Positions 3,095 to 23,557 of a DNA stretch of 23,557 bases are shown here, piece by piece. Position numbers and translations under genes: made by a program. Each line of letters opens with the position of its first letter. Positions within the stretch are counted from its first letter, which is position 1. The stretch spans positions 1-23,557 of the IMG/VR virus record IMGVR_UViG_3300021085_000221, one strand, 5' to 3'. The stretch comes from a virus. The notes beneath the pieces were generated by a model. The model had not been told where the DNA came from and made no database searches. It saw only the letters and a list, made by a program, of their open reading frames with translations.

Positions 3095-3102
3095 TATTTA
3101 TA
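3095..3102 (-). promoter_or_regulatory. T4-type late promoter box for gp22-gp23
   Basis: Minus-strand TATAAATA, identical to the T4 late promoter box, sits in the 49-base gap between gp21 and gp22. In T4 this box is read by the gp55/gp33/gp45-modified host polymerase. It leaves 39 bases before the gp22 ATG, room for a leader containing the AGGAGA ribosome binding site. Confidence 0.85.
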
Positions 3103-5757: not shown

Positions 5758-5765
5758 TATTTATA
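5758..5765 (-). promoter_or_regulatory. T4-type late promoter box directly before gp20
   Basis: Exact minus-strand TATAAATA in the 43-base gap between gp19 and gp20. If spacing follows T4 late promoters (box at about -13 to -6), the first transcribed base would be the A of the gp20 ATG at 5752, giving a leaderless message. A small 5-bp inverted repeat (5765-5769 with 5776-5780) touches the upstream end of the box. Confidence 0.65.
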
Positions 5766-8360: not shown

Positions 8361-8368
8361 TATTTATA
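8361..8368 (-). promoter_or_regulatory. T4-type late promoter box for gp18-gp19
   Basis: Exact minus-strand TATAAATA in the 77-base gap between gp17 and gp18, the longest gap in the structural block. It leaves 41 bases before the gp18 ATG, including an AGGAGA ribosome binding site. This would boost sheath and tube production independently of the terminase transcript. Confidence 0.85.
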
Positions 8369-12295: not shown

Positions 12296-13111
12296 TTATC
12301 CCATTAAGTCCATGACTGGCATTTCAAAATTCAGTCTTGACTCTTCTTCTAATCTTGTAATCTCTTCTTGTGCTTCTGTTTTAATTTGTTGTGCATCAAG
12401 TGTAACCCCGCCTGGAAGTGCGATACCTTGGAACTTAGATAGATTCTCACCCCACTGATACTTAACAAGTGCAGTTGCATACTTCTTAAGGAACATATCG
12501 TTATATATGTCTGTAAAGTCTACAGGGTCTATTTTCCTATAACATTCTATTATTATGTACTCTCCAGCAGTTAACTTTGCAGTAGTATAATCAATATACA
12601 ATCTATTTTGATGAGAGTTGTATCGTATTGGTATCTGTCCGACTAACATATCGTTTATTAATTTTATATGTTGTTGAACTTGTGAGTAGTATAGTACACT
12701 TGTTGATGTTAAATCCCAAAGGTCATTTAGTCTCAACTGATACTGTATGTCAAACATACTAGATGTTTGTCCTGAATTAAATGGAAATATTCTTAGTACA
12801 CTTAACACATGTTCGGGTAGTGTTACATAACTTTTACTCTCTTTGTAAGATTGATTTGAGATTGCCTGTGTTCCACTTGTAGAACCAGTAAGAGTGTCAT
12901 CTGTTTTAAATGAATCAATTTCTTCTTGTGTGATTTGGTGTTTTAAATACGTCTTAATGGAACCATTGTAATGATATTCATGAAAGTATTGTAATGCCTC
13001 ATCAATTCTGTCATCTAACTGGTCATCATCAACATTAATCTCTAATACTGGAGCTCCAAGTTTCCTCTTTATATAGTCTTTTAAGGTACTTTTTGATGTT
13101 GGTTCTGCCAT
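12296..13111 (-). CDS. gp13: Neck protein gp13
   Basis: Portal-binding neck protein that completes the head before tail attachment. It has 271 residues against 309 in T4. The N-terminal segment LKDYIKRKLGAPVLEINVDD and the following DRIDEALQYFHEYHYNGS are the strongest family signatures; the C-terminal third is helical (FLKKYATALVKYQWGENLSKF). The ATG at 13111 follows AGGAA at good spacing. An exact TATAAATA box lies 31 bases upstream, so this gene probably opens the late neck-terminase transcription unit. Confidence 0.94.
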   Translation of the reverse strand: MAEPTSKSTLKDYIKRKLGAPVLEINVDDDQLDDRIDEALQYFHEYHYNGSIKTYLKHQITQEEIDSFKTDDTLTGSTSGTQAISNQSYKESKSYVTLPEHVLSVLRIFPFNSGQTSSMFDIQYQLRLNDLWDLTSTSVLYYSQVQQHIKLINDMLVGQIPIRYNSHQNRLYIDYTTAKLTAGEYIIIECYRKIDPVDFTDIYNDMFLKKYATALVKYQWGENLSKFQGIALPGGVTLDAQQIKTEAQEEITRLEEESRLNFEMPVMDLMG

Positions 13112-13142: not shown

Positions 13143-13150
13143 TATTTATA
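13143..13150 (-). promoter_or_regulatory. T4-type late promoter box for gp13 unit
   Basis: Exact minus-strand TATAAATA, followed by GTAGTA, in the 51-base gap before gp13. It leaves 31 bases before the ATG, enough for a leader with an AGGAA ribosome binding site. It marks the border between the accessory block and the conserved T4 module. Confidence 0.85.
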
Positions 13151-13162
13151 TGAATTTAGAAC

Positions 13163-13423
13163 CTATTCTTGGAAGTAAGTCTTAGATTGTAGACGGTCTA
13201 TCTTCTCGTCTATCCTGTTCATAGTAGCGATTAGTCTTTCAGACACAATTTCCACTTCTTCACGAGTAACATATTCTTTTGCTAACTCTTCTCTTGTCTT
13301 ATTGACAAGTATATCTATTCTCTTCTGTTCGGATAAAAGGTTTCTTATTAGGAATCCTAAAGGTGCTAACACGAATGTTATCATAAGGTTCCAAAGAAGG
13401 TGAGTGTCTATTACTATTTCCAT
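13163..13423 (-). CDS. Small membrane-anchored coiled-coil protein, unknown function
   Basis: An 86-residue protein. Residues about 9-27 form a hydrophobic stretch (LLWNLMITFVLAPLGFLI), probably one membrane segment. The rest (residues 31-82) is a charged, heptad-like helix with Glu, Lys, Arg and regularly placed Ile/Leu, likely a coiled coil. I do not recognise a family. The topology is the reverse of XhlA-type lysis proteins, which carry the coiled coil first. It could be an anchored assembly factor or a lysis accessory. The ATG at 13423 has no clear ribosome binding site; a near-promoter TCTAAATA ends 5 bases before it. Confidence 0.72.
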   Translation of the reverse strand: MEIVIDTHLLWNLMITFVLAPLGFLIRNLLSEQKRIDILVNKTREELAKEYVTREEVEIVSERLIATMNRIDEKIDRLQSKTYFQE

Positions 13424-13440: not shown

Positions 13441-14145
13441 CTAGTCGGTTGAAAGGTCTCCATTGGGATGAACATTATAAACAAATTCATCATCATTGTA
13501 GTTTGGTATGTCACCACTATGACCACCTTCAGCAGGATATCTCATTTCTATATTAAATGATATTGAATATCTTTCTTTATCAGTTACATTTGGTTCTACC
13601 ATATGCATAAGACCACTTGGAAAAAGTATGAGTTTACCACCTTTGGGTTCAAATCCTTTACTCGTTGCAGTTCTAGGTGAGTTTGGAAAATCTGCGACAA
13701 CTTTAGGATGTGTATCAATCATTTCAATATGACCTTCATCTCCATCTGCTTTTATATAAAACACACCACTATACCAACAACCATTATGCAAGTGTGGTTT
13801 GTTCCATGCAAGATGGTCGTTAATATTTGCCCAAGAATTTCCTATATGCATATTTGCTTTGTTACGGTCTAATCCATGGAAAGGCCATATCTCATCATAA
13901 AACATAGTTTGTATTCTATTCATTAGTTTTTGGAATGCAGGATTAGATTCACAACCATCATGTGATTGCCAACCAGTGTATGCATTAGAAAGTCTTCTAC
14001 CTTCGGGGTCTTTTCTTCTCATACCATCCATAGTATCAGTAAGAAGGTCTAAGTAATTTTGGTCTACACCTCTATTTGAATCTAAACTAGGGTCTAGTAA
14101 ATCTCTCTCAAAGATATATGTTGGGAAAAGTAATCTAACTGCCAT
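13441..14145 (-). CDS. 2OG-Fe(II) oxygenase (2OG-FeII_Oxy_5-like)
   Basis: A 234-residue protein predicted to use Fe(II), O2 and 2-oxoglutarate to hydroxylate an unknown substrate. The double-stranded beta-helix core is recognisable: PHLHNGCWYSGVFYIKA at 117-133 with probable metal ligands in the His118/His120 segment, then LILFPSGLMHMVEPN at 172-186 with distal His181, and Arg192 in ERYSISFNIEMR as the likely 2-oxoglutarate contact. This layout is that of the PF13759-type family found in many marine T4-like phages. I chose ATG 14145 (MAVRLLFPTY) over upstream codons because it places only 11 bases inside the previous gene and begins the conserved fold; GGAG lies 10 bases before it. Confidence 0.85.
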   Translation of the reverse strand: MAVRLLFPTYIFERDLLDPSLDSNRGVDQNYLDLLTDTMDGMRRKDPEGRRLSNAYTGWQSHDGCESNPAFQKLMNRIQTMFYDEIWPFHGLDRNKANMHIGNSWANINDHLAWNKPHLHNGCWYSGVFYIKADGDEGHIEMIDTHPKVVADFPNSPRTATSKGFEPKGGKLILFPSGLMHMVEPNVTDKERYSISFNIEMRYPAEGGHSGDIPNYNDDEFVYNVHPNGDLSTD

Positions 14146-15025
14146 CGAAATCAAACTCCAATTGTGTTTCTTCTGAAACTTCTTTGTTGTGAAAAGGACA
14201 CTCGGGTGGTGGATTCTCTTCTTTATAAAGTTTGCCTTTTGGTTTCCAATAACCCTGTCTACGGTATGCACCAAACTCTTTTACACTGTCTTCGTCAAAT
14301 TCTACTAACTGACTCCACTCTTGCATAGATTTATTTGTAGAAACTGTTCTATCGAACTCTGATGTTCCTGTTCCACGATTATCAATCCAAGATTTATGTG
14401 TATTGACTTGATAGGAACCAACCCACTTCTCTCTTTTATATGGTATTATCTGACAAAGAGGAGTCCCTTTTGGTATTACAAATGAGTAATCTACTTTAGG
14501 ATAAAAAATTATTTGTGCATTGTCCATACCCACATTAAAGTCGTCTGTATCTATGATACCTTGCCATGTTGCAAAATGATTATTCTGAAATAGGAATGGG
14601 TCTAGGTAAAAACAAGAATAGCCAGGTGGTGTTTTGATATTCCAAGGGTTTCTCATTTTAAATGCATCCTTAATTGGTTTACCACCACCTAAGTATTCAA
14701 ATGCATCTAGTGTTTGTGTTGTTGGATGACTATTAGAATTGTAACCACCCCCATGTGGGTCAAAGGTTGCGAGAGTATCACTACCTCTATCGTCTCCACC
14801 AATTCCGTTTATAACATGTATATCTCTATTTGCCAATAGTATCCAACCACTCTTTAACCAATCATCCATGGCTGGACAGGCACGAATGGTCTGTTGAACC
14901 GTACCATTTACTAACTCACCTGCTTTTGCTTTCTTCCACCAATCAGGTGATATAGAACTTGCAAGGACTGGTTTAAAGTCTTTGAGTGTTTCTTTATTAT
15001 ATGTGTGAAATTCTATCGTTGGCAT
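14135..15025 (-). CDS. Unknown protein between two oxygenases (possibly DUF6065-like)
   Basis: A 296-residue soluble protein starting MPTIEFHTYNKET from ATG 15025; a TTG one codon earlier is less likely. It is rich in aromatic residues and looks beta-rich in the middle (GYSCFYLDPFLFQNNHF, then DYSFVIPKGTPLCQIIPYKR). No metal-ligand pair or nucleotide-binding loop stands out. The composition and context recall uncharacterised marine phage proteins found near 2OG oxygenases, perhaps the DUF6065 group, but I am not sure. Near the end a CPFH motif precedes an acidic tail. It overlaps both flanking oxygenase genes (29 and 11 bases), so all three are probably translated as a set and may act in one pathway. 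Confidence 0.8.
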   Translation of the reverse strand: MPTIEFHTYNKETLKDFKPVLASSISPDWWKKAKAGELVNGTVQQTIRACPAMDDWLKSGWILLANRDIHVINGIGGDDRGSDTLATFDPHGGGYNSNSHPTTQTLDAFEYLGGGKPIKDAFKMRNPWNIKTPPGYSCFYLDPFLFQNNHFATWQGIIDTDDFNVGMDNAQIIFYPKVDYSFVIPKGTPLCQIIPYKREKWVGSYQVNTHKSWIDNRGTGTSEFDRTVSTNKSMQEWSQLVEFDEDSVKEFGAYRRQGYWKPKGKLYKEENPPPECPFHNKEVSEETQLEFDFDGS

Positions 15026-15716
15026 CAAAAAACTCTGATTGGTCTACTAATCTTACTTCGTCCCCTCTCAAGACTAGTGACCTTCTGTCTATGTATCTTG
15101 CTGATGGAGTAGGTGCATCTGCACCATGAGGTATTCTACCATCAAACATTATTAATCTATTTGGTTTAAATTCTATTTCTGCAATCTGATGGTTGTCAAT
15201 ATGTTCTTGTCTTCCATCTAAACCTTGTTGCATCTTATTATATAGTCGTAACTTACCACCCCAATTTTTGTTCCAAAACTTATTGGTGTAGTATAGGAAT
15301 GAAAGGTTCCAATCATCTTCTTCTTGACAATCTGCATGGGTAGTTCCCTGCAATCCTTGTGTTTGTGAGTTTAAACCCATGTACTGAAATCGTTGCCACT
15401 TGAATCCAAATTCTGTTTGCAATCTTCTATTCATATAGTATGGAAAAAATGTATGAAGTTTATCCATATCCTTTTCCAACTCCATATCATTTCTATAGAA
15501 TGTTGCACCCCAAAAACTATGATGTGGTAATCCTGTTGGACTTCCACTAGAAACTTGATTTGTTTTAGACCAAAGATTATGTCCAACTATATAGTCATCA
15601 AAATGGTGATGAAGTTCAGTTGCAAGATAGTTATCTAAAACATAAACATCTTTAAGTGGTAAGTCTTCTATTTTAAAGGGTTCATCTATATAGACAACCT
15701 TTATATCGTCATACAT
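14997..15716 (-). CDS. 2OG-Fe(II) oxygenase, prolyl-4-hydroxylase type
   Basis: A 239-residue protein with the full Fe(II)/2-oxoglutarate signature: HxD at His127-Ala128-Asp129 (THADC), distal His197 in RIPHGADAP, and an Arg pair at 211-212 in YIDRRSLVLRG suited to bind 2-oxoglutarate. Between them lie core strands NLSFLYYTNKFWNKNWGGKL (137-156) and AEIEFKPNRLIMFDG. The spacing and strand pattern are those of prolyl-4-hydroxylase-like enzymes, which modify protein side chains or small substrates. The substrate is unknown. The start is ATG 15716, 3 bases after the upstream gene, with a weak purine-rich AAAGATAAG ribosome binding site. The next gene starts inside its end. Confidence 0.88.
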   Translation of the reverse strand: MYDDIKVVYIDEPFKIEDLPLKDVYVLDNYLATELHHHFDDYIVGHNLWSKTNQVSSGSPTGLPHHSFWGATFYRNDMELEKDMDKLHTFFPYYMNRRLQTEFGFKWQRFQYMGLNSQTQGLQGTTHADCQEEDDWNLSFLYYTNKFWNKNWGGKLRLYNKMQQGLDGRQEHIDNHQIAEIEFKPNRLIMFDGRIPHGADAPTPSARYIDRRSLVLRGDEVRLVDQSEFFDANDRISHI

Positions 15717-15719
15717 GAC

Positions 15720-16277
15720 TTATCTTTCGTGGTCGGGTAATAAAGAAGCTTTTGGTAGTTGTACAACATACTCTTGTAATGGTTTAAGATAGTCTTCTCT
15801 AGTAGCGAAAATTTCATTTACAAGTTGGTCATATATTACATATTGTGAATCTGCAAATTCTAAAATTCTTCTTGCATTTGACCTATATGGATGGTTAGAA
15901 CCCTCTCTACCAGCAAATGTTGCTTCTGATAAATCATCAAATCCATAGTTATCAGTAAACTCTGAAATGTTATTTTTAACTTCACCAATCAAGTCTTGTA
16001 CATACTGATTGTTTAATGTGGTTCCAGCTGGTGGTTCAGAGTTATCTATGTAGTTTTCTATAATATCTTTTTCAGCACTAGTTATATCTCTTTTAATTTG
16101 GTCATCAAAACAGAGATTGTCATCCCATTTTTCAATTACAACTTCTATATCATCATATACAAGAACATCAAAATCGAATCCTAGTTCGGGTTGGTCTGTA
16201 TTATCAAATTCATATTGTAAACCATTTGGTTTTCTTACTATTAGTTTTTGGTCTTCTGTGTAAATTAGTGCGTTCAT
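15720..16277 (-). CDS. Unknown protein, possibly fibre-assembly related
   Basis: A 185-residue acidic protein from ATG 16277 (MNALIYTEDQ); an in-frame TTG 18 bases earlier lacks a ribosome binding site, while GAGG lies 12 bases before the ATG. The N-terminal half is beta-rich and acidic. The C-terminal third is helical with GREGSNHPYRSNARRILEFA followed by a Tyr/Asp-rich helix. This arrangement recalls tail-fibre assembly or DUF4376-type phage proteins, but the match is by feel only. Its place between the glycosyltransferase and oxygenases suggests a role in the same fibre-related block. Confidence 0.75.
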   Translation of the reverse strand: MNALIYTEDQKLIVRKPNGLQYEFDNTDQPELGFDFDVLVYDDIEVVIEKWDDNLCFDDQIKRDITSAEKDIIENYIDNSEPPAGTTLNNQYVQDLIGEVKNNISEFTDNYGFDDLSEATFAGREGSNHPYRSNARRILEFADSQYVIYDQLVNEIFATREDYLKPLQEYVVQLPKASLLPDHER

Positions 16278-16325
16278 ACTGTTATTATACCTCAATTTTA
16301 TGTATTTTACAAGCGGTTTTCATTT

Positions 16326-17891
16326 TTATTTTTTCCACTTTCTATAATCTTCTAAGTTATTTATGTGACTAGAATCCATGTCATCTATCCACGGGCCTCC
16401 TCTAGTGTAGTGAATACCAGTGTAATCCCATTTAACTTTAGGGTCGTCATATCCCTCAACAAATATGTATTTTTCGGGTATTGGACTTATCTTATCTGTC
16501 CACTCAAACTGATGTAACTGTTTTCCAGTCCAAGTGTTGACAACTTCGGGTGTTAGTTTCTTACAATCTTCATGTCCATTATTAAAAAACATCATTGAAG
16601 ACCACAACTTACATGGATAGTCTATATTCACTTCTCCATCAAATTTAGTTTCATCATGTTTTATTTGTGGATATTTAATACATGCAACTGCATCATCAGG
16701 ATTTAGATAGTAAAACATTGGTAGTATAGACTTGTTGAAAATAAAATCATCATCTATAAATAAACTAAATCCTTCATAGTTTTCTAAGTATGGGATTAAG
16801 AATCTACTATATGTGAATTCAGTAGATTGATTTGCATATTCTCTAGTATACTCGGAAATTTTAGACTTGTCAAGAAATTTAATTTCGGGTGTAAACTTAT
16901 TATAGTTTACAAATCTACCACCACCGATAGACTTTTGAATAGAATGTAATAAAGATTCTTTACATATATCTTGTAGGTCGTTGTGCCTACTATCATATCC
17001 TATGTAAACATTCAAGGGTTTACCTTTAGAAAGTTTAGTAACTTTCTCACTATGTTCCCAAACATATTTTCTAAAATCTACATTACTAAAGTCTGCCTGA
17101 AATTCTATAGTACCCATTGTCCATATTGCAGAGAGACCTTTATACTTTGGTTTTCTAACTCCATTACATACTTTGTCTTGCCAATACTCTAAACATTCCT
17201 TGACTGTTATAGGTTCTACTGGTATAATATCATGAGAGTCCCACAATAATAATTCATTAGTTGGGTCTTCCATCTCTTCAAAACAACCTGAACGAACAGA
17301 GCCAGGATGTATCATTAATTGAACTTTATCACCCGTAGATTGAGTTACACCCTGTATGGGTGCCCAGAGTCCTTCTTCCATAATACTTTGAGTTAACCAA
17401 TGTGCTTTTGCACTATGATAATACATAGAATTTAATGAAACTGGAAAATCTTCAGCTTCAAAATCACCTGTTTCTAACTCATCACCAACGTAATCTTTTA
17501 TCTCTACTATTGTATCACCACTTGGTTCTGATACTGCAAATTTTGTAGAAGGCGCTCCATGTTCATTTATAGAACCTGATGTATAAACTTTTGGGAAGAA
17601 TTTATGGTATGAATTTGCCTGAAATCTAAGACCTTGCCATCCAAGTAGTTCACCACTTTTTCTTAGTGGGTCTAAGTCTGACCATTTGCATTTTTTGAGT
17701 GGTGGCATATTCTCAAACATGTATTCAAGAATTTTAAAGAATTCCGACTCCTCATCTATATTAGATAAGTCATCTAGTGAACCCAAATGCCATTGGTCTA
17801 ACTCTCTTCTTGTTCTATGAGTTAGTTCTGTAAATGACTCGGGTATCTCTAGGAATTCTTTTGTTTGCTCTAGGGTTTTTAGTTTATCCAT
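16326..17891 (-). CDS. Two-domain protein: unknown N-terminal domain plus GT8-like glycosyltransferase
   Basis: A 521-residue protein. Residues about 293-521 look like a GT-A fold glycosyltransferase related to family 8: LNVYIGYDSRHNDL at 293-306 opens the Rossmann-like half, LFIDDDFIF at 377-385 holds the DxD metal/sugar-nucleotide motif (Asp380-Asp382), and IHYTRGGPW at 493-501 resembles the GT8 C-terminal H-x(n)-KPW-like motif. Residues 1 to ~285 form a separate domain I cannot name; SIMEEGLWAPIQG followed by IHPGSVRSG at 169-202 loosely recalls ParB/sulfiredoxin-like proteins. The start is ATG 17891 with AGAGGA 8 bases upstream. It directly follows the repeat protein gene, so a virion protein could be its acceptor. 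Confidence 0.75.
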   Translation of the reverse strand: MDKLKTLEQTKEFLEIPESFTELTHRTRRELDQWHLGSLDDLSNIDEESEFFKILEYMFENMPPLKKCKWSDLDPLRKSGELLGWQGLRFQANSYHKFFPKVYTSGSINEHGAPSTKFAVSEPSGDTIVEIKDYVGDELETGDFEAEDFPVSLNSMYYHSAKAHWLTQSIMEEGLWAPIQGVTQSTGDKVQLMIHPGSVRSGCFEEMEDPTNELLLWDSHDIIPVEPITVKECLEYWQDKVCNGVRKPKYKGLSAIWTMGTIEFQADFSNVDFRKYVWEHSEKVTKLSKGKPLNVYIGYDSRHNDLQDICKESLLHSIQKSIGGGRFVNYNKFTPEIKFLDKSKISEYTREYANQSTEFTYSRFLIPYLENYEGFSLFIDDDFIFNKSILPMFYYLNPDDAVACIKYPQIKHDETKFDGEVNIDYPCKLWSSMMFFNNGHEDCKKLTPEVVNTWTGKQLHQFEWTDKISPIPEKYIFVEGYDDPKVKWDYTGIHYTRGGPWIDDMDSSHINNLEDYRKWKK

Positions 17892-17919: not shown

Positions 17920-19002
17920 TTAAGAAGATATAGGTGTTCCAGGCCACGTTTGTGATAAATTACCATCCCATCTAATAACAGGTGTTCTACCTTGTCTAGC
18001 ATATGTGCCAGGTTGTCTATTTTGGTATGTAAACGGTGTTTGACCCTGTCTAGCATATGTGCCAGGTTGTCTATTTTGGTATGTAAACGGTGTTTGACCC
18101 TGTCTAGCATATGTGCCAGGTTGTCTATTCTGATAAGTGAATGGAGTCTGACCTTGTCTAGCATATGTGCCAGGTTGTCTATTTTGGTATGTAAACGGTG
18201 TTTGTGCATTAACTGGATTCTGATAGATACTAGGTTGTCTATTCTGATAAGTGAATGGAGTTTGTGCATTAACTGGATTCTGATAGGTACTAGGTTGTCT
18301 ATTTTGGTATGTGAACGGTGTTCTACCTTGTCTTGCATAGGTGTTAGGTTGTCTATTCTGATAAGTGAATGGAGTCTGTCCTTGTCTTGCATAGGTGTTA
18401 GGTTGTCTGTTCTGATATGTAAACGGTGTTTGACCCTGTCTTGCATATGTTCCAGGCTGTCTGTTCTGATATGTAAATGGTGTTCTACCAGTTCTTTGAT
18501 ATGTACCAGGCTGTCTGTTACTATATGTAAATGGTACTCTGTAACTTACAGGGTTTCTGTATGTAAATGGTGACCTGTTACTATATGTAAATGGTACTCT
18601 GTAACTTACAGGGTTTCTGTATGTAAATGGTGACCTGTTCTGATAAGTGAACGGTAACTGATAACCTACTGGGTTTCTGTATGTAAATGGAGACCTTCTC
18701 TGATAAGTGAATGGTTGTCTAGCATTAGCAATATATGGAACCCTGTATGTAAATGGATTTCTATATGTAAATGGTTGTCTAGCATTCGCAATATATGGTA
18801 CACGATAGGTAAATGGGTTTCTGTATGTAAATGGTTGTCTAGCATTCGCAATATATGGAACCCTGTATGTAAATGGGTTTCTGTATGTAAAAGGAGACCT
18901 TCCATTAGCGATATATGGCACACGATAGGTAAACGGCACCCTATATGTAAATGGTTGCCTAGCGTTTCCTATATTAGGTACTTGATAATTTCCTATTGCC
19001 AT
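17920..19002 (-). CDS. Pro/Tyr-repeat protein A (PFTY repeats), probable fibre or adhesin
   Basis: A 360-residue protein: 8 leading residues, a 332-residue repeat tract (9-340) and a 20-residue tail (PVIRWDGNLSQTWPGTPISS). The tract consists of 44 units, each starting with Pro, of exactly 6, 8 or 10 residues (examples PFTYRN, PYIANARQ, PGTYARQGQT). The first half is mostly a 20-residue super-unit (8+6+6) and the second half an 18-residue one (8+10). Tyr is usually at unit position 4 or 2. No acidic residue occurs in the tract and Arg/Lys content is high, so it should be strongly basic. No Cys, signal peptide or membrane segment is seen. I know of no named function; the position next to fibre genes suggests a virion surface fibre. 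ATG 19002 follows AGGAA by 9 bases. Confidence 0.85.
   Translation of the reverse strand: MAIGNYQVPNIGNARQPFTYRVPFTYRVPYIANGRSPFTYRNPFTYRVPYIANARQPFTYRNPFTYRVPYIANARQPFTYRNPFTYRVPYIANARQPFTYQRRSPFTYRNPVGYQLPFTYQNRSPFTYRNPVSYRVPFTYSNRSPFTYRNPVSYRVPFTYSNRQPGTYQRTGRTPFTYQNRQPGTYARQGQTPFTYQNRQPNTYARQGQTPFTYQNRQPNTYARQGRTPFTYQNRQPSTYQNPVNAQTPFTYQNRQPSIYQNPVNAQTPFTYQNRQPGTYARQGQTPFTYQNRQPGTYARQGQTPFTYQNRQPGTYARQGQTPFTYQNRQPGTYARQGRTPVIRWDGNLSQTWPGTPISS
17983..18978 (-). repeat. Coding tandem repeats (54- and 60-bp super-units) in protein A
   Basis: DNA encoding residues 9-340 of protein A. Some copies are exact and adjacent, for example the 54-bp unit repeated around 18000-18115 and a 60-bp unit whose 39-base block at 18541-18579 recurs at 18601-18639. 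Others encode the same residues with different codons: PFTY appears as CCG TTT ACA TAC, CCG TTC ACA TAC and CCA TTC ACT TAT. The tract therefore mixes recent duplication with old, selected copies. Confidence 0.9.
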
Positions 19003-19013
19003 TTATATTTTTC

Positions 19014-19316
19014 CTATACTACTTCTATTAAAAGAGAACCGTAATGTCCTGTAAGAGTTCTCATATTATCAGGTACATCAATATCATCAGGATATGGAAG
19101 AACGTAAGACATTGAGATAATCTCGGTGATTATATTGTTTTCCACAATCTGTAAAAAGTTATTACAAGCCTCATCATCTACAGTAGTTCCTACCGTAAAT
19201 TCACTTTCATTTACATTAACATCTACTTGATAGTCTACACCATCAATAGTTACCTCTTTTAGAGGATTACTCTTTCTATGTTTTATTCCGTTTTTTAAAA
19301 ATGTTGTTGTTGCCAT
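19014..19316 (-). CDS. Small unknown protein between the two repeat genes
   Basis: A 100-residue soluble protein, starting MATTTFLKNGIKHRKSNPLK and then mostly acidic and beta/helix mixed (VTIDGVDYQVDVNVNESEF, later LQIVENNIITEIISMSYV). No known motif is visible. The ATG at 19316 has a strong ribosome binding site (GAGGAG) and the gene lies 11 and 15 bases from its two repeat-protein neighbours, so the three genes are probably co-transcribed. Its acidic nature beside a basic repeat protein would fit a chaperone or capping partner, but this is a guess. Confidence 0.78.
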   Translation of the reverse strand: MATTTFLKNGIKHRKSNPLKEVTIDGVDYQVDVNVNESEFTVGTTVDDEACNNFLQIVENNIITEIISMSYVLPYPDDIDVPDNMRTLTGHYGSLLIEVV

Positions 19317-19331
19317 GTTATTTTCTCCTCA

Positions 19332-20966
19332 TTATAAAATTGCTAAACTGTTTGGTGAACCACTAGGTGCGACATAAAAAGCAGCACCATTAATGTTTAC
19401 TGTTTTGTAACAGTAAGTGTCGTTGTAAGGGTAGAATGTAAACCCTGCAAAAGGATAATCATTCTGACCAGCAGGGGTTATTACTCTAAATTTTGTTGCC
19501 GGTGAAGCAGGTAAACTAACATATGCACCACTTATATAGAACTGACCAAGGGTTACTGTACCATTTGGACTAGTGCCTGGTGTAAATATTGTAAATTGTT
19601 TCCCTGTATTCTCTGACCATGGTATAGTTGGGTTTTGAGGCCAGTTACCGTTAGTTCCCAACGGATTATTTCCTGTAGGAGCAAACGGAGATTGACCAAA
19701 GTCAAAACCATTTTTCAATGAACTATACCCATAGCCAGGGTAAATAGTAGCTGAAGTTGACGTGAATGGCCCAGCAACTAATGGGTCGGGATACGGATAT
19801 GTACCTGGCGTTCTAAATGAATATGTAAATGGTGTCTGTCCATTTGCAGGATATCTTGCATTCGCAGGATATCTAGCACTGTAAGTAAAAGGTTGTCTAG
19901 CATTACTAGGTGATTGAGCATTCGCAGGATACCTAGCATTGTAAGTAAACGGTGATTGTGCGTTACTAGGTGATTGAGCATTCGCAGGATACCTAGCATT
20001 GTAAGTAAACGGTGATTGTGCGTTACTAGGACTCTGAGCGGCAGCAGGATACCTAGCATTGTAAGTAAACGGTGTTTGACCATTCGCAATAACTGGTTGT
20101 TGTGCAGATACTGGGTTTCTATAACCTCTTGGAGTTCTAGCATTCGCAATATACGGTTGTTGTGCAGATACTGGGTTTCTGTATCCTGCAGGTTGTCTAG
20201 CGTTAGCAATATATGGTTGTTGACCGTTTACAGGGTTTCTATATCCAGCAGGTTGTCTAGCGTTCGCAATATATGGGGTCTGACTGTTAGCAATATAAGG
20301 ATATGGTTGCTGAGCGTTAGCGATATAAGGCGTTTGACTGTTTGCAATATACGGATAAGGTTGTTGTGCAGATGCAATATAAGGCGATTGACTATTCGCA
20401 ATATATGGATACGGTTGTTGTGCATTCGCAATGTAAGGACTCTGACTATTAGCAATATACGGATAAGGTTGTTGTGCAGCTGCAATATATGGTGTTTGTG
20501 CATTTACTGGATTTCTGTATGTACTAGGTTGTCTTGCATTCGCAATATAAGGTGTCTGAGCGTTACTAGGATTTCTGTATGTACTAGGTTGTCTAGCATT
20601 TGCAATGTAAGGTGTCTGACTATTTGCAATGTACGGATATGGTTGCTGAGCATTTGCAATGTAAGGACTCTGACTGTTTGCTATGTACGGATATGGTTGT
20701 TGTGCATTTGCAATATATGGAGTCTGACTATTAGCAATATAAGGATACGGTTGTTGAGCGTTAGCGATATAAGGAGTTTGACTATTTGCAATATACGGAT
20801 ACGGTTGTTGAGTATTTTGTTGACCTGATGCATTATTCCACCCTGTAGGTGTTTTTACATATATTTGGTCTACAGCCTTCCACGTTGTAGAACCTGTTTT
20901 AACCCATCCACCTTGAGTTGAACTCCAACCCGAAGGTGTTTTTACCTTTTGTGACCCTGTTGCCAT
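19332..20966 (-). CDS. Pro/Tyr-repeat protein B (PYIAN repeats) with N-terminal GW units and C-terminal globular domain
   Basis: A 544-residue protein in three parts. Residues 1-54 carry GW-type units (VKTPSGWSS, GGWVKTGSTTWKAV, VKTPTGWNN) like those common in phage tail proteins. Residues 55-386 are a 332-residue tract of Pro-initiated units of 6, 8 or 10 residues, mainly PYPYIANSQT plus PYIANAQQ (18 residues together), with PFTYNARY-type units near the end. Residues 387-544 form a Gly/Tyr/Pro-rich, probably beta-rich domain with two Trp and one Cys that could be a receptor-binding tip. The tract shares unit types (PYIANARQ, PFTY, PVNAQT) with protein A, so the two are related. ATG 20966 has AAGG 11 bases upstream, and the fibre gene terminator lies just before it. 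Confidence 0.85.
   Translation of the reverse strand: MATGSQKVKTPSGWSSTQGGWVKTGSTTWKAVDQIYVKTPTGWNNASGQQNTQQPYPYIANSQTPYIANAQQPYPYIANSQTPYIANAQQPYPYIANSQSPYIANAQQPYPYIANSQTPYIANARQPSTYRNPSNAQTPYIANARQPSTYRNPVNAQTPYIAAAQQPYPYIANSQSPYIANAQQPYPYIANSQSPYIASAQQPYPYIANSQTPYIANAQQPYPYIANSQTPYIANARQPAGYRNPVNGQQPYIANARQPAGYRNPVSAQQPYIANARTPRGYRNPVSAQQPVIANGQTPFTYNARYPAAAQSPSNAQSPFTYNARYPANAQSPSNAQSPFTYNARYPANAQSPSNARQPFTYSARYPANARYPANGQTPFTYSFRTPGTYPYPDPLVAGPFTSTSATIYPGYGYSSLKNGFDFGQSPFAPTGNNPLGTNGNWPQNPTIPWSENTGKQFTIFTPGTSPNGTVTLGQFYISGAYVSLPASPATKFRVITPAGQNDYPFAGFTFYPYNDTYCYKTVNINGAAFYVAPSGSPNSLAIL
19809..20804 (-). repeat. Coding tandem repeats (54- and 60-bp super-units) in protein B
   Basis: DNA encoding residues 55-386 of protein B. 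The dominant super-units are 54 bp (10+8 residues) and 60 bp (8+6+6 residues). A 50-base block at 19921-19970 recurs exactly at 19981-20030. Elsewhere copies differ at synonymous sites, for example the Ile-Ala-Asn codons of PYIAN. The region leaves several other frames open by chance. Confidence 0.9.
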
Positions 20967-20989: not shown

Positions 20990-21017
20990 AAAAATTAAAT
21001 ACTCTTACTAAGAGTAT
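20990..21017 (-). terminator. Terminator containing the stop codon of the fibre gene
   Basis: Minus-strand hairpin at 21017-20999: a 9-base inverted repeat around one central base (ATACTCTTA G TAAGAGTAT), realistically a 7-bp stem with a TAGTA loop. It is followed by a T-rich run broken by AA (TTAATTTTT). The TAG stop of the fibre gene lies within the hairpin, mostly in its loop. The interrupted T run suggests partial rather than full termination. Confidence 0.6.
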
Positions 21018-23557
21018 AAAACCCATAAATCACCAACTGCACCATCACTACCTGTAGGAGATGAAGTTGATTGATATATGTTTCTCACATATCCACCCGA
21101 GTTCGAAGTGTTACTAGTTGTTATTGTTCCTAGTGTTGCATTAGAACCACTCTCATATTTAGTGTTTAAGGCAGTCTGTAGTCCGTCAACATTTGCAATT
21201 GTGTGATTATGCGAATCGTCTGCAACTGCAGCTGAAATTGTAATATTACCAGTTCCATCAAATGATGCAGAACCTGATAAGTCTCCACCCAATGCAATTG
21301 TTCTTGCAGTAGTTAACTTAGCAGCACTAGATGCAGTAGAAGCGTTTCCTGTTAATGAACCTTCAAAAGAAGATGCCTTAACATTATGTGAACCAAATGT
21401 CCATTCGTCTTCTGACTCGTCCCATGTCAATGAAACATTAGCAGAAGTTCCTCTTTCAACTTCAATACCTGAATCCTGTGAAGGTGTTCCAGTAACATCA
21501 TTGTTAAGTGTAATGATATTATCAGATACATTAAGCGTTGCAGTGTTAACAGTTGTTGTAGTTCCGTTAACAGTCAAATCACCTGAAAGTGTAAGGTCTG
21601 CGAATTGAACATCACTAGTTGTTGAAACTGCCTGTCCAATACTAATTGCACCACCACTGAATCCAACACCAGTACCTGCACTTAAATGAGCACGAGTCTC
21701 AGCAGCACTTGGGCCTGTATATGTTATCACACCAGTACCACTGTTATATGCAAGTGAACCATCTCCACCTGAATCTGTTACTGATAGTTTACCTCTTACT
21801 TGTGAATCACTGATACCTGAATATGTGATTGCACCAGTTGAAGAGTTGTATGATAGCGAACCATCTCCAGCGTTATCTGTTACCGATATTAGTCCTCTTA
21901 CTTCTGCATCTGTTCTTTCTGTGAATGAGAAAGCACCAGTTCCACTGTTGTATGATAAATCTCCACCAGCAGATAATAAACCTCTAATACTTCCATCTGA
22001 TAAACCAGCAAGTGTAAGTGTTCCAGCAGTATCGTCATATGTAGAAGTGATGTTTGTTCCACCAACTACTAAACCATTTACGATATCTTCGATTTCTTCT
22101 TCAGTTTTTCCTGAAGTGTTAATTGTAAGTGTTCCAGCAGTGTCATCATATGATGTTGTTATGTTAGTACCACCAACCAATAATGCATTTACTCTGTCAT
22201 CAACTCTTTCTGAAGTATGATATAAGTTACCATTTTCTGAAATATCACCAGTGTCTAGTGTTACTGAAGAACCTAATGCAGTTGAACTTCCGTTAACTGT
22301 TATTGTTGAGTTCGCAAGTTTATTATTTGCGATTGAACCTGCAAGTTTACTTTGATTGATTGAACCTGCCAACATAGCATTAGTAATACCTGATGCCTTA
22401 ACCTGAACTGTATCTGTATCTATTTCTAATGAACTGTCATCAACATTTACGTTTAAAGTTACATCACCTGAAGTTCCACCACCAGTTAAACCAGTACCAG
22501 CAACTACGGATTCTATATCACCAGCATCATTTGTGAATGATATTACACCACTAGTAGAGTTATATGATAAATCACCACTAACACTAATCGCACTTCTTGC
22601 CCTTGCAGCAGTATGATAAAGGTTATTCGAACCTTCTGTAATTTCGTCTGAATTGTCTTTAGTAGCAACTTGAGCATCAACATATGCCTTTACGGATTGC
22701 TGTGATGGAAGTTTTGTAGCACTATCAGAGACCATGTTGTCTTCGTCTATTAATGCATTAGTAATTCTTGCATCTACTCTTGCAGATGTGTGATAAAGGT
22801 TAGTTGAACCTTCAGTGATTTCGTCTGTATTGTCTTTACCTGCAACTTGTGAGTCTACATATGCCTTTACGGATTGTTGTGAAGCAGCGTGAGATGCACT
22901 GTTTGATGTCATATCATCTTCATCTTTAAGGTCTAAGTTTACAGTAACAGCACCTGAAGTTCCACCACCAGTTAAACCTGTTCCAGCAACTACAGATTCT
23001 ATATCACCTGCATCATTAGTAAATGATATTACACCAGTTGAACTATTGTATGATATATCACCACTTGCAGATAGAGCAGCTCTTGCTCTTGCATCTGTAA
23101 AGTAAAGATTGGAACCTTCTGTAATTTCGTCTGTATTGTCTTTACCTGCAACTTGTGAGTCAACGTATGCTTTTACTGACTGTTGACTTGGAAGTTTAGT
23201 AGCACTATTTGATGCCATATTATCTTCATCAACTAATGCATTTGTAATTCTAGCATCTGCTCTTGCATCTGTAAAGTAAAGGTTACTTGAACCTTCTGTT
23301 ATTTCATCTGTATTGTCTTTTGTTAGAATACTTGCATCAACATAAGCTTTAATTGATTGTTGTGATGCAGCGTGAGATGCACTGTTCGAAGACATATCGT
23401 CTTCGTCTTTAAGGTCGATTGCAATGTCATCTGCGTTTACAGTAATACCTGTACCAGCACCAATGTTTAATGTTGCATCACCTGAAGTTGCAGTACCAGT
23501 TAAACCAGCACCAGCATTTACTCCTGTGATATCTCCAACATTACCTGTGATTGTTAA
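21008..23557 (-). CDS. Large fibre-like structural protein, partial (N-terminus outside window)
   Basis: The frame stays open to the window edge, so the visible 849 residues are the C-terminal part; the ATG at 23395 is only an internal Met. The visible N-terminal half has repeats built on ASQQSVKAYVDSQVAGKDN, DEITEGS-NLYFTDARA and GDIESVVAGTGLTGGGTSG, typical of long phage tail fibres and marine phage structural proteins. The middle carries LSYNSSTGAI-type units. The last ~230 residues include LTLSGDLTVNGTTTTVNTA, an NIITLNNDVTG region, ALGGDLSGSASFDGTGNITI and a terminal GAVGDLWVLYS, common fibre-tip endings. It is almost free of aromatic and Cys residues compared with the next two genes. 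It ends in a hairpin terminator. Confidence 0.85.
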   Translation of the reverse strand, partial: LTITGNVGDITGVNAGAGLTGTATSGDATLNIGAGTGITVNADDIAIDLKDEDDMSSNSASHAASQQSIKAYVDASILTKDNTDEITEGSSNLYFTDARADARITNALVDEDNMASNSATKLPSQQSVKAYVDSQVAGKDNTDEITEGSNLYFTDARARAALSASGDISYNSSTGVISFTNDAGDIESVVAGTGLTGGGTSGAVTVNLDLKDEDDMTSNSASHAASQQSVKAYVDSQVAGKDNTDEITEGSTNLYHTSARVDARITNALIDEDNMVSDSATKLPSQQSVKAYVDAQVATKDNSDEITEGSNNLYHTAARARSAISVSGDLSYNSTSGVISFTNDAGDIESVVAGTGLTGGGTSGDVTLNVNVDDSSLEIDTDTVQVKASGITNAMLAGSINQSKLAGSIANNKLANSTITVNGSSTALGSSVTLDTGDISENGNLYHTSERVDDRVNALLVGGTNITTSYDDTAGTLTINTSGKTEEEIEDIVNGLVVGGTNITSTYDDTAGTLTLAGLSDGSIRGLLSAGGDLSYNSGTGAFSFTERTDAEVRGLISVTDNAGDGSLSYNSSTGAITYSGISDSQVRGKLSVTDSGGDGSLAYNSGTGVITYTGPSAAETRAHLSAGTGVGFSGGAISIGQAVSTTSDVQFADLTLSGDLTVNGTTTTVNTATLNVSDNIITLNNDVTGTPSQDSGIEVERGTSANVSLTWDESEDEWTFGSHNVKASSFEGSLTGNASTASSAAKLTTARTIALGGDLSGSASFDGTGNITISAAVADDSHNHTIANVDGLQTALNTKYESGSNATLGTITTSNTSNSGGYVRNIYQSTSSPTGSDGAVGDLWVLYS
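22460..23430 (-). repeat. Duplicated ~162-residue block in the fibre gene
   Basis: A block of about 483-486 bp occurs twice in tandem; boundaries are approximate. For example, the sequence coding GDIESVVAGTG lies near 22501 and again near 22987, and the KAYVD-coding segment near 22681 recurs near 23164. Each block itself holds two shorter, diverged ASQQSVKAYVD units. Copies differ at many synonymous positions and by a codon indel. Confidence 0.75.

Follow-up and report, generated by a model that had tools for sequence, protein, structure and literature searches.

The DNA considered here is the viral record IMGVR_UViG_3300021085_000221 of IMG/VR, of which positions 1 to 23,557 were analysed as a whole (hereafter the window, 23,557 nucleotides). 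The source is a T4-like marine phage, and the window holds its structural-gene stretch on the minus strand. Read along that strand, the genes encode a tail-fibre-like protein, protein B, a 100-residue protein, protein A, a glycosyltransferase, a 191-residue protein (p191), a first Fe(II)/2-oxoglutarate (2OG) oxygenase (2OG1), a 297-residue protein (p297), a second such oxygenase (2OG2), an 86-residue protein (p86) and a neck protein (Table 1). Proteins A and B carry long tracts of proline-led repeat units of even length, and this even spacing is the main subject of the analysis.

In protein A, 45 prolines from Pro9 to Pro341 share a single parity. They bound 44 units of 6, 8 or 10 residues (18, 18 and 8 of each) that add up to 332 residues, and this exact recount agrees with the preliminary description of the DNA. 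The next units, PVIRWDGNLSQTW (13 residues) and PGT (3), are part of the conserved C-terminal end and lie outside the tract. In protein B, 56 prolines from Pro55 to Pro395 are likewise of one parity. The even rule claimed for B stands, but its lengths are confined to 6, 8 and 10, as had also been claimed, only if PYPYIANSQT is taken as one unit and the last eight residues (PGTYPYPD) are dropped; with every proline counted, 2-residue units (PY nine times, PD once) and one 4-residue unit (PGTY) occur as well. Outside its tract B departs from the rule, with units of 29 and 15 residues before it and, after it, PLVAG (5) followed by the C-terminal domain. Units of the same length diverge more at silent sites (proportion of differences, pS) than at amino-acid-changing sites (pN), with pS 0.74 and pN 0.26 for the 8-residue units of A, and pS 0.66 and pN 0.43 for the 6-residue units of B, the least clear case. 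Both proteins therefore look like real coding sequence.

Homologous loci were gathered from viral contigs by two scans with the repeats, giving 78 and 80 loci (158, with many contigs common to both), and by a third scan with 2OG1, giving 80. Each set holds at most the best 80 of the 197, 222 and 313 loci confirmed in the respective scans and may lack more remote relatives that behave differently. Tracts were picked by proline density and a motif filter, parity not being used, and contained tracts were removed (121 to 117). Together the window and the homologous loci provide 117 distinct tracts, in which 98.9% of 4832 proline-to-proline distances are even and 730 distinct unit strings are represented. 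The corresponding count is 479 of 837 in 61 proline-rich tracts that failed the filter, which lie in other reading frames of the same loci and, being non-repeats, make a rough control. From the 2OG1 scan came 18 new tracts, and in the 16 that were used (at least 12 prolines) 23 of 507 units are odd, every one among the first or last three. Reducing the 133 tracts to 52 representatives, which have under half of their six-letter words in common, leaves 2116 units. Of these, 41 are odd, including 39 located at most five units from a tract end. With the first and last four prolines of each tract excluded, 1855 of 1856 prolines in the representatives are in phase. The single odd pair well within a tract, at locus L064, is PFTYQ followed by PRS, which sum to 8 and are best read as a substitution to proline inside an 8-residue unit. 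A tabulation of proline-to-proline distances in homologues had been set beforehand as a test, and within the tracts it yielded no units of 5, 7 or 9 residues apart from this pair. In several unit families, one and the same prefix is found at lengths of 4, 6, 8 and 10 residues. The even-spacing observation is real and is stronger than first claimed.

Other residues keep to the register as well. Among 33,600 tract residues, taken from the longest even stretch of each tract (which places proline at 100% by construction but not the aromatic residues), the phase opposite proline holds 99.6% of Tyr, 99.8% of Phe, 98% of Val, 88% of Gly and 87% of Ala. The phase of proline holds 97% of Ile, 74% of Arg and 68% of Gln and of Thr, and Asn has little bias (55%). 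Distances from one aromatic residue to the next, counted in the same stretches, are 99.5% even. The proposal that Phe, Tyr and Val lie opposite proline in one register for more than 300 residues is borne out by this count. Gly makes up 1048 of the 33,600 residues and the units are even, so the tracts lack the Gly-X-Y pattern of collagen.

Parity alone could come from recombination of whole repeats, and gap lengths were therefore compared between related sequences. The comparison used all 262 pairs of tracts with at least 80% identity over at least 100 residues and, for control genes, up to 1200 random pairs per family at 60% identity or more, with simultaneous gaps on both sides excluded; the pairs share sequences and are non-independent, and no exact probability is claimed. 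Odd gaps number 26 of 730 between tracts versus 2386 of 3439 in eight neighbouring gene families. Gaps of one residue are the commonest in each of the eight families and account for 8 of 730 in the tracts, 7 of these 8 being no more than 7 residues away from a tract end. The commonest tract gap is of two residues (137 of 730), mostly within units (YI, RN, NN, NA and others, with 3 of the 137 being a PY unit), and there are 30 gaps of four residues. As for the 26 odd tract gaps, seven are close to a tract end (at most 7 residues away), several others come together with a second odd gap, and seven gaps of 13 residues fall at a single place, against one sequence group. Changes smaller than a unit thus occur, but in twos, which argues that the two-residue register is kept by selection. 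On this comparison the register is a selected property of the whole protein family.

The genes that follow the tract are also constant. Their order is glycosyltransferase, p191, 2OG1, p297, 2OG2, p86 and gp13, and the complete set of seven occurs in 119 of the 158 loci. In 35 further loci the first cassette genes are present and the locus ends no more than 177 bases past the last one seen, and the remaining four, of 6.9 to 8.0 kb, end within the tract. The glycosyltransferase frame starts at most 300 bases after the tract end in all 154 loci that have it. Among loci reached via 2OG1, a tract is present in all 54 that are testable, with at least 3.5 kb upstream; the other 26 of the 80, with less, were put aside, and 8 of these still show a tract. 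The predicted enzyme cassette adjoining an even-spaced tract is new here.

The 158 loci hold 51 to 54 distinct reading frames of each enzyme, and alignments were made from 24 of 51 distinct sequences for 2OG1, 28 of 54 for 2OG2 and 26 of 54 for the glycosyltransferase, as stop-to-stop frames with some residues ahead of the start. 2OG1 matches PF13640 at 37.5 bits (cut-off 27), and its candidate metal-binding residues H126, D128 and H196 are invariant in 24 rows. Its profile has one sequence match in the PDB (up to E 0.1), the bacterial prolyl 4-hydroxylase 6t8m (E 3e-4, 23.6 bits, 55 positions); the similarity is weak, and the H, D and H of that family are kept. 2OG2 matches PF13759 at 68.6 bits (cut-off 27), with H160, H162, H223 and R234 invariant in 28 rows. 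The glycosyltransferase falls below the Pfam cut-off for GT8 (PF01501, 19.3 bits against 24.3), while its DxD motif (D379, D381) is invariant in 26 rows; a cruder text pattern for DxD missed 29 of the 154 frames. Its N-terminal part of about 290 residues matches no family, yet lies within the conserved profile. The family phrog_274, which 2OG1 matches, is labelled DNA endonuclease V, with similar labels in three phage records (L245, L250 and L251), and this label looks wrong for an oxygenase family.

The interpretation favoured here, with confidence a little above even, is that A and B are a pair of extended, beta-type fibrous structural proteins in strict register, hydroxylated and glycosylated by the co-encoded enzymes and carried on the virion. 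A period of two residues is that of an extended beta chain, and a two-residue register implies a chain of this type. One side of the chain would bear Pro, Ile and most of the Thr, Gln and Arg, and the other side Tyr, Phe and most of the Ala, Val and Gly. Units would be gained or lost in two-residue steps only, since a one-residue shift would leave every side chain beyond it facing the wrong way. The two oxygenases would hydroxylate the repeats, proline being the likeliest target, and the glycosyltransferase would then add sugars to the hydroxylated repeats. The product would be a decorated fibre or adhesin, with the exchangeable C-terminal domains of B at its tip. The position of the A/B locus between the tail-fibre-like gene and the gp13-like neck gene was counted in favour of a fibre. 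What the sequences themselves show is the register and its conservation, how scarce odd gaps are, the constant gene cassette and the conserved catalytic residues; the beta structure, the virion location, the substrate and the modification of A and B are inferred.

Several results weigh against this decorated fibre, both on the side of the enzymes and on that of the fold. The sole PDB matches of 2OG2 are two uncharacterised proteins, and the glycosyltransferase profile has no match among PDB chains. In P-SSM2 and S-SSM4, 2OG1 has relatives that stand apart from the fibre genes and are surrounded by replication or terminase genes, and the 2OG oxygenases that are common in cyanophages have been proposed, in an excerpt of PMC3037559, to serve nitrogen signalling or DNA repair. 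A neck-to-fibre gene order can also be inherited without shared function, and the loci are related phages with many contigs sampled twice. It is accordingly possible, if rather doubtful, that the oxygenases and the glycosyltransferase are mere neighbours of the tracts and act elsewhere, on the host surface, on DNA or on the 2-oxoglutarate pool. Such an explanation has to contend with an order that is fixed with the tract in every testable locus, and with Phage C48C1, the nearest isolate by terminase, which has neither tract nor enzymes between its fibre and neck genes.

With regard to the fold, AlphaFold2 left A unfolded (42-row alignment, mean predicted local distance difference test score, pLDDT, of 39). 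In B (38-row alignment) it placed 3-residue strands at each YIA from residue 57, with a spacing of 8/10. This weakly solenoid-like part has a pLDDT of 53-67 and extends to about residue 240, with only two short pieces beyond. The extended or beta-type fibre suggested in the preliminary description has thus gained in its register, through the gap comparison and the side taken by the aromatic residues, but not in its fold. The strands in B would suit a single-chain beta-solenoid, with each 18- or 20-residue super-unit forming one coil whose short strands would be at YIA or FTY and whose turns would be at proline, and VIA-align likens part of B to beta-helical chains, e.g. the tail fibre of Agrobacterium phage 7-7-1 (Z 8.3, root-mean-square deviation (rmsd) 4.5, 199 residues). 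The top row of that comparison, however, is the Sf6 portal:gp7 chain (Z 8.4, rmsd 6.9), and models that match nothing clearly usually reach a Z of about 8. Foldseek of the B model found no match below E 3 in the PDB and one match below 0.001 in BFVD, with a template modelling score (TM-score) of 0.14. False beta-solenoids are a known product of AlphaFold2 on perfect repeats (PMC11795689), and the B model may be such an artefact. A obeys the same rule and gave no fold. On the whole a solenoid is considered unlikely.

The same low probability is attached to a homotrimeric beta fibre, in which three chains would wind round one axis with each unit forming one strand per face, as in the needle of T4 gp5. 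Phage fibres are usually trimers, an even unit length would preserve inside and outside positions, and a single-chain AlphaFold2 model would miss a trimer, as may hold for A. Neither A nor B contains VxGxxxxx octads, however, their unit lengths vary between 6, 8 and 10, and a Gp5_trimer_C match in one relative of B is below threshold (16 bits, cut-off 30.9).

Composition suggests a further possibility. Protein A of the window is basic, with 44 Arg against no Lys and a single acidic residue among its 360 residues, and 61 A-type sequences have 20-62 Arg, 0-2 Lys and 1 to 20 acidic residues. An Arg-rich, acid-poor A could be a nucleic-acid binder instead of a fibre, or a disordered adhesive. A disordered adhesive or condensing tract of the mussel-foot or extensin type would be a sticky chain of modified Tyr, Pro and Arg repeats without fixed fold. 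It would agree with the low-complexity composition rich in Tyr, Arg and Pro, with the failure of AlphaFold2 to find a fold in A and with the adjoining oxygenase and glycosyltransferase genes, but there is no reason for a disordered chain to forbid one-residue shifts or to hold more than 99% of its aromatic residues on one parity, and it is thought improbable. Least credible is a neutral bookkeeping in which the ancestral units happened to be even and whole-repeat recombination kept the parity without structural meaning: many tract gaps do equal whole units or super-units (8, 10, 12, 18, 20 or 40 residues) and the repeats have DNA periods of 54 and 60 bases, but the prevalence of two-residue gaps inside units, the scarcity of one-residue gaps and the occurrence of one prefix at four unit lengths make it very hard to sustain.

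The earlier statement that no described fold has such a rule was too strong. Silk-type (Gly-X)n beta sheets and the octads of the T4 gp5 triple-stranded beta-helix also alternate every two residues along a beta chain. A and B differ from both in that they have no Gly-X and, in their unit strings, no constant VxGxxxxx octad, have proline every 6-10 residues, and vary in their even unit length. Mussel foot mefp-1, extensins and the collagen-like fibres of mimivirus, which has a hydroxylase-glycosyltransferase, are repetitive hydroxylated chains, some of them glycosylated; A and B resemble them in kind of chain, their own modification being a prediction. That A and B form a new class of viral beta-fibre, holding register over hundreds of residues, with an obligate cassette for its own hydroxylation and glycosylation and a changeable, sometimes self-cleaving tip, is offered tentatively and seems on balance unlikely. 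If true, bacteriophages would have their own equivalent of extensin or mussel foot protein.

So strict a rule is in itself a direct, testable statement on an unseen structure, and it offers designers a repeat that permits even steps only. It also leads to a concrete target being proposed for the 2OG oxygenases of marine T4-like phages. In the excerpts of PMC3037559 and PMC9301287, nitrogen signalling, DNA repair or collagen-like modification are guessed for these enzymes, and a chlorovirus prolyl 4-hydroxylase is cited in the latter. Searches of an open-licence library listed no paper on these repeats or on phage fibre hydroxylation.

Comparable arrangements are found in other phages. Between its tail-fibre genes and neck gene, a comparable place, pelagiphage Mosig carries four genes annotated as 2OG oxygenases. 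In cyanophage syn9, halogenases and 2OG oxygenases come right after the tail-fibre assembly genes. Both phages have the T4-like (Kyanoviridae) gene order in common with the window. The inspected neighbour in Mosig, Mosig_00062, is Gly-rich and, unlike A and B, has no such repeats. One relative of p297 is close to the tail genes of haloarchaeal virus HCTV-8, and another is in cyanophage P-TIM40, with tryptophan halogenases next to it. The tryptophan halogenases stand beside the p297-like gene in P-TIM40 (L248 4723-8657) and beside the oxygenase run in syn9 (L251 1946-8585), and these neighbourhoods may hint at further fibre chemistry. By analogy, modification of fibre proteins could be a wider theme, with A and B as the presumed substrates here.

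Additional searches returned few relatives, and among the phage records none that is clearly related to A or B. A tblastn of A against 50,697 phage records matched 6 records at 35-41% identity, and that of B matched none, records very near the window possibly being excluded in both cases. In two of the six records, which were inspected, the match sits among regulatory or unannotated genes. No family scored above cut-off for A, B and their profiles in Pfam or for the A profile among PDB sequences. The sub-threshold Pfam names obtained for A and B (RhaB_D2, SplA, HTH_Tnp_IS1 and Cementoin) were set aside as compositional, as were phrog_4041 and phrog_33328, which have no function assigned and match 24 residues of A. 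Among 21 pattern matches in contigs of the bacterial genome collection, the sole confirmed relative (L163 6001-7238) comes from a contig of 121 kb that was assigned to the bin of a Sphingobacteriales metagenome-assembled genome. This is perhaps a phage contig and a hint to the host.

Relatives of B have the N-terminal domain in common and exchange the C-terminal domain. A Hint-type (Hedgehog/intein autoprocessing) stretch is found at the C-terminus of 12 of 57 B-type proteins with an intact end, by a crude text sorting, and the B of the window, unlike some relatives, ends without one. With fragments included there are 14 distinct Hint-type sequences, all 14 with a Cys after Gly residues, and their end is VHN plus a few residues. 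In a Pfam scan of seven B relatives, three had Hint-type matches, two of these relatives with a match above cut-off (L107 Hint, L062 Vint); the families matched by C-terminal domains of B relatives are PF01079, PF14890 and PF14623. The presence of such a domain suggests possible self-cleavage or covalent attachment of the fibre protein.

Table 1. Features of the A/B locus (positions in the window) and B relatives with Hint domains
Feature	Position	Strand	Remarks
Tail-fibre-like structural protein upstream of B	21008..23557	-	truncated by window end
Protein B, 544 residues	19332..20966	-	conserved N-terminal domain, tract, exchangeable C-terminal domain
N-terminal domain of B (VKTPSGW/IYVKTPTGW)	20805..20966	-	conserved in the family; pLDDT 56-74 in blocks of residues 11-50
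Tract of B, residues 55-394	19785..20804	-	single proline phase (units 2, 4, 6, 8)
C-terminal domain of B, window type	19332..19784	-	other types in relatives, including Hint domains and Gly-rich tails
100-residue protein between B and A	19014..19316	-	relative in 30/158 homologous loci
Protein A, 360 residues	17920..19002	-	nearly all tract; conserved C-terminal end RWDGNLSQTWPGTPISS
Tract of A	17983..18978	-	44 proline-led units, one phase
Glycosyltransferase	16326..17891	-	sub-threshold GT8 match in C-terminal half; DxD
p191	15720..16295	-	conserved cassette member
2OG1	14997..15716	-	2OG-Fe(II) oxygenase 1, PF13640
p297	14135..15028	-	phrog_7084
2OG2	13441..14274	-	2OG-Fe(II) oxygenase 2, PF13759; alignment suggests true start at Met43 (about 14148)
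p86	13163..13423	-	final gene ahead of neck gene
Neck protein	12296..13111	-	head-tail adaptor Ad2, T4 gp13-like
B relatives with C-terminal Hint domain			L107, L112, L117, L136, L138, L142, L154, L156, L158, L035, L062, others

For the 100-residue protein between B and A there was no match in Pfam (up to E 0.1) or PHROG (up to E 0.01). The genes beyond the neck gene are, by length and order, presumably gp14, gp15, small terminase, large terminase, sheath, tube, portal, protease, scaffold and capsid. The large terminase is the only one of these confirmed by tblastn, at 54.6% identity to Phage C48C1 (Kyanoviridae). The motif TATAAATA, which we take to be that of T4-type late promoters, occurs in 5 copies in the window against 3.1 expected, a number not above chance. 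Minus-strand copies lie at 3095-3102, 5758-5765, 8361-8368 and 13143-13150, each 6 to 42 bases ahead of a structural reading frame; the last of them precedes the neck gene, and none precedes A or B. The tail-fibre-like gene upstream of B contains a tandem duplication of 483 bases (window 22451-23416, 2.0 copies, 80% matches).

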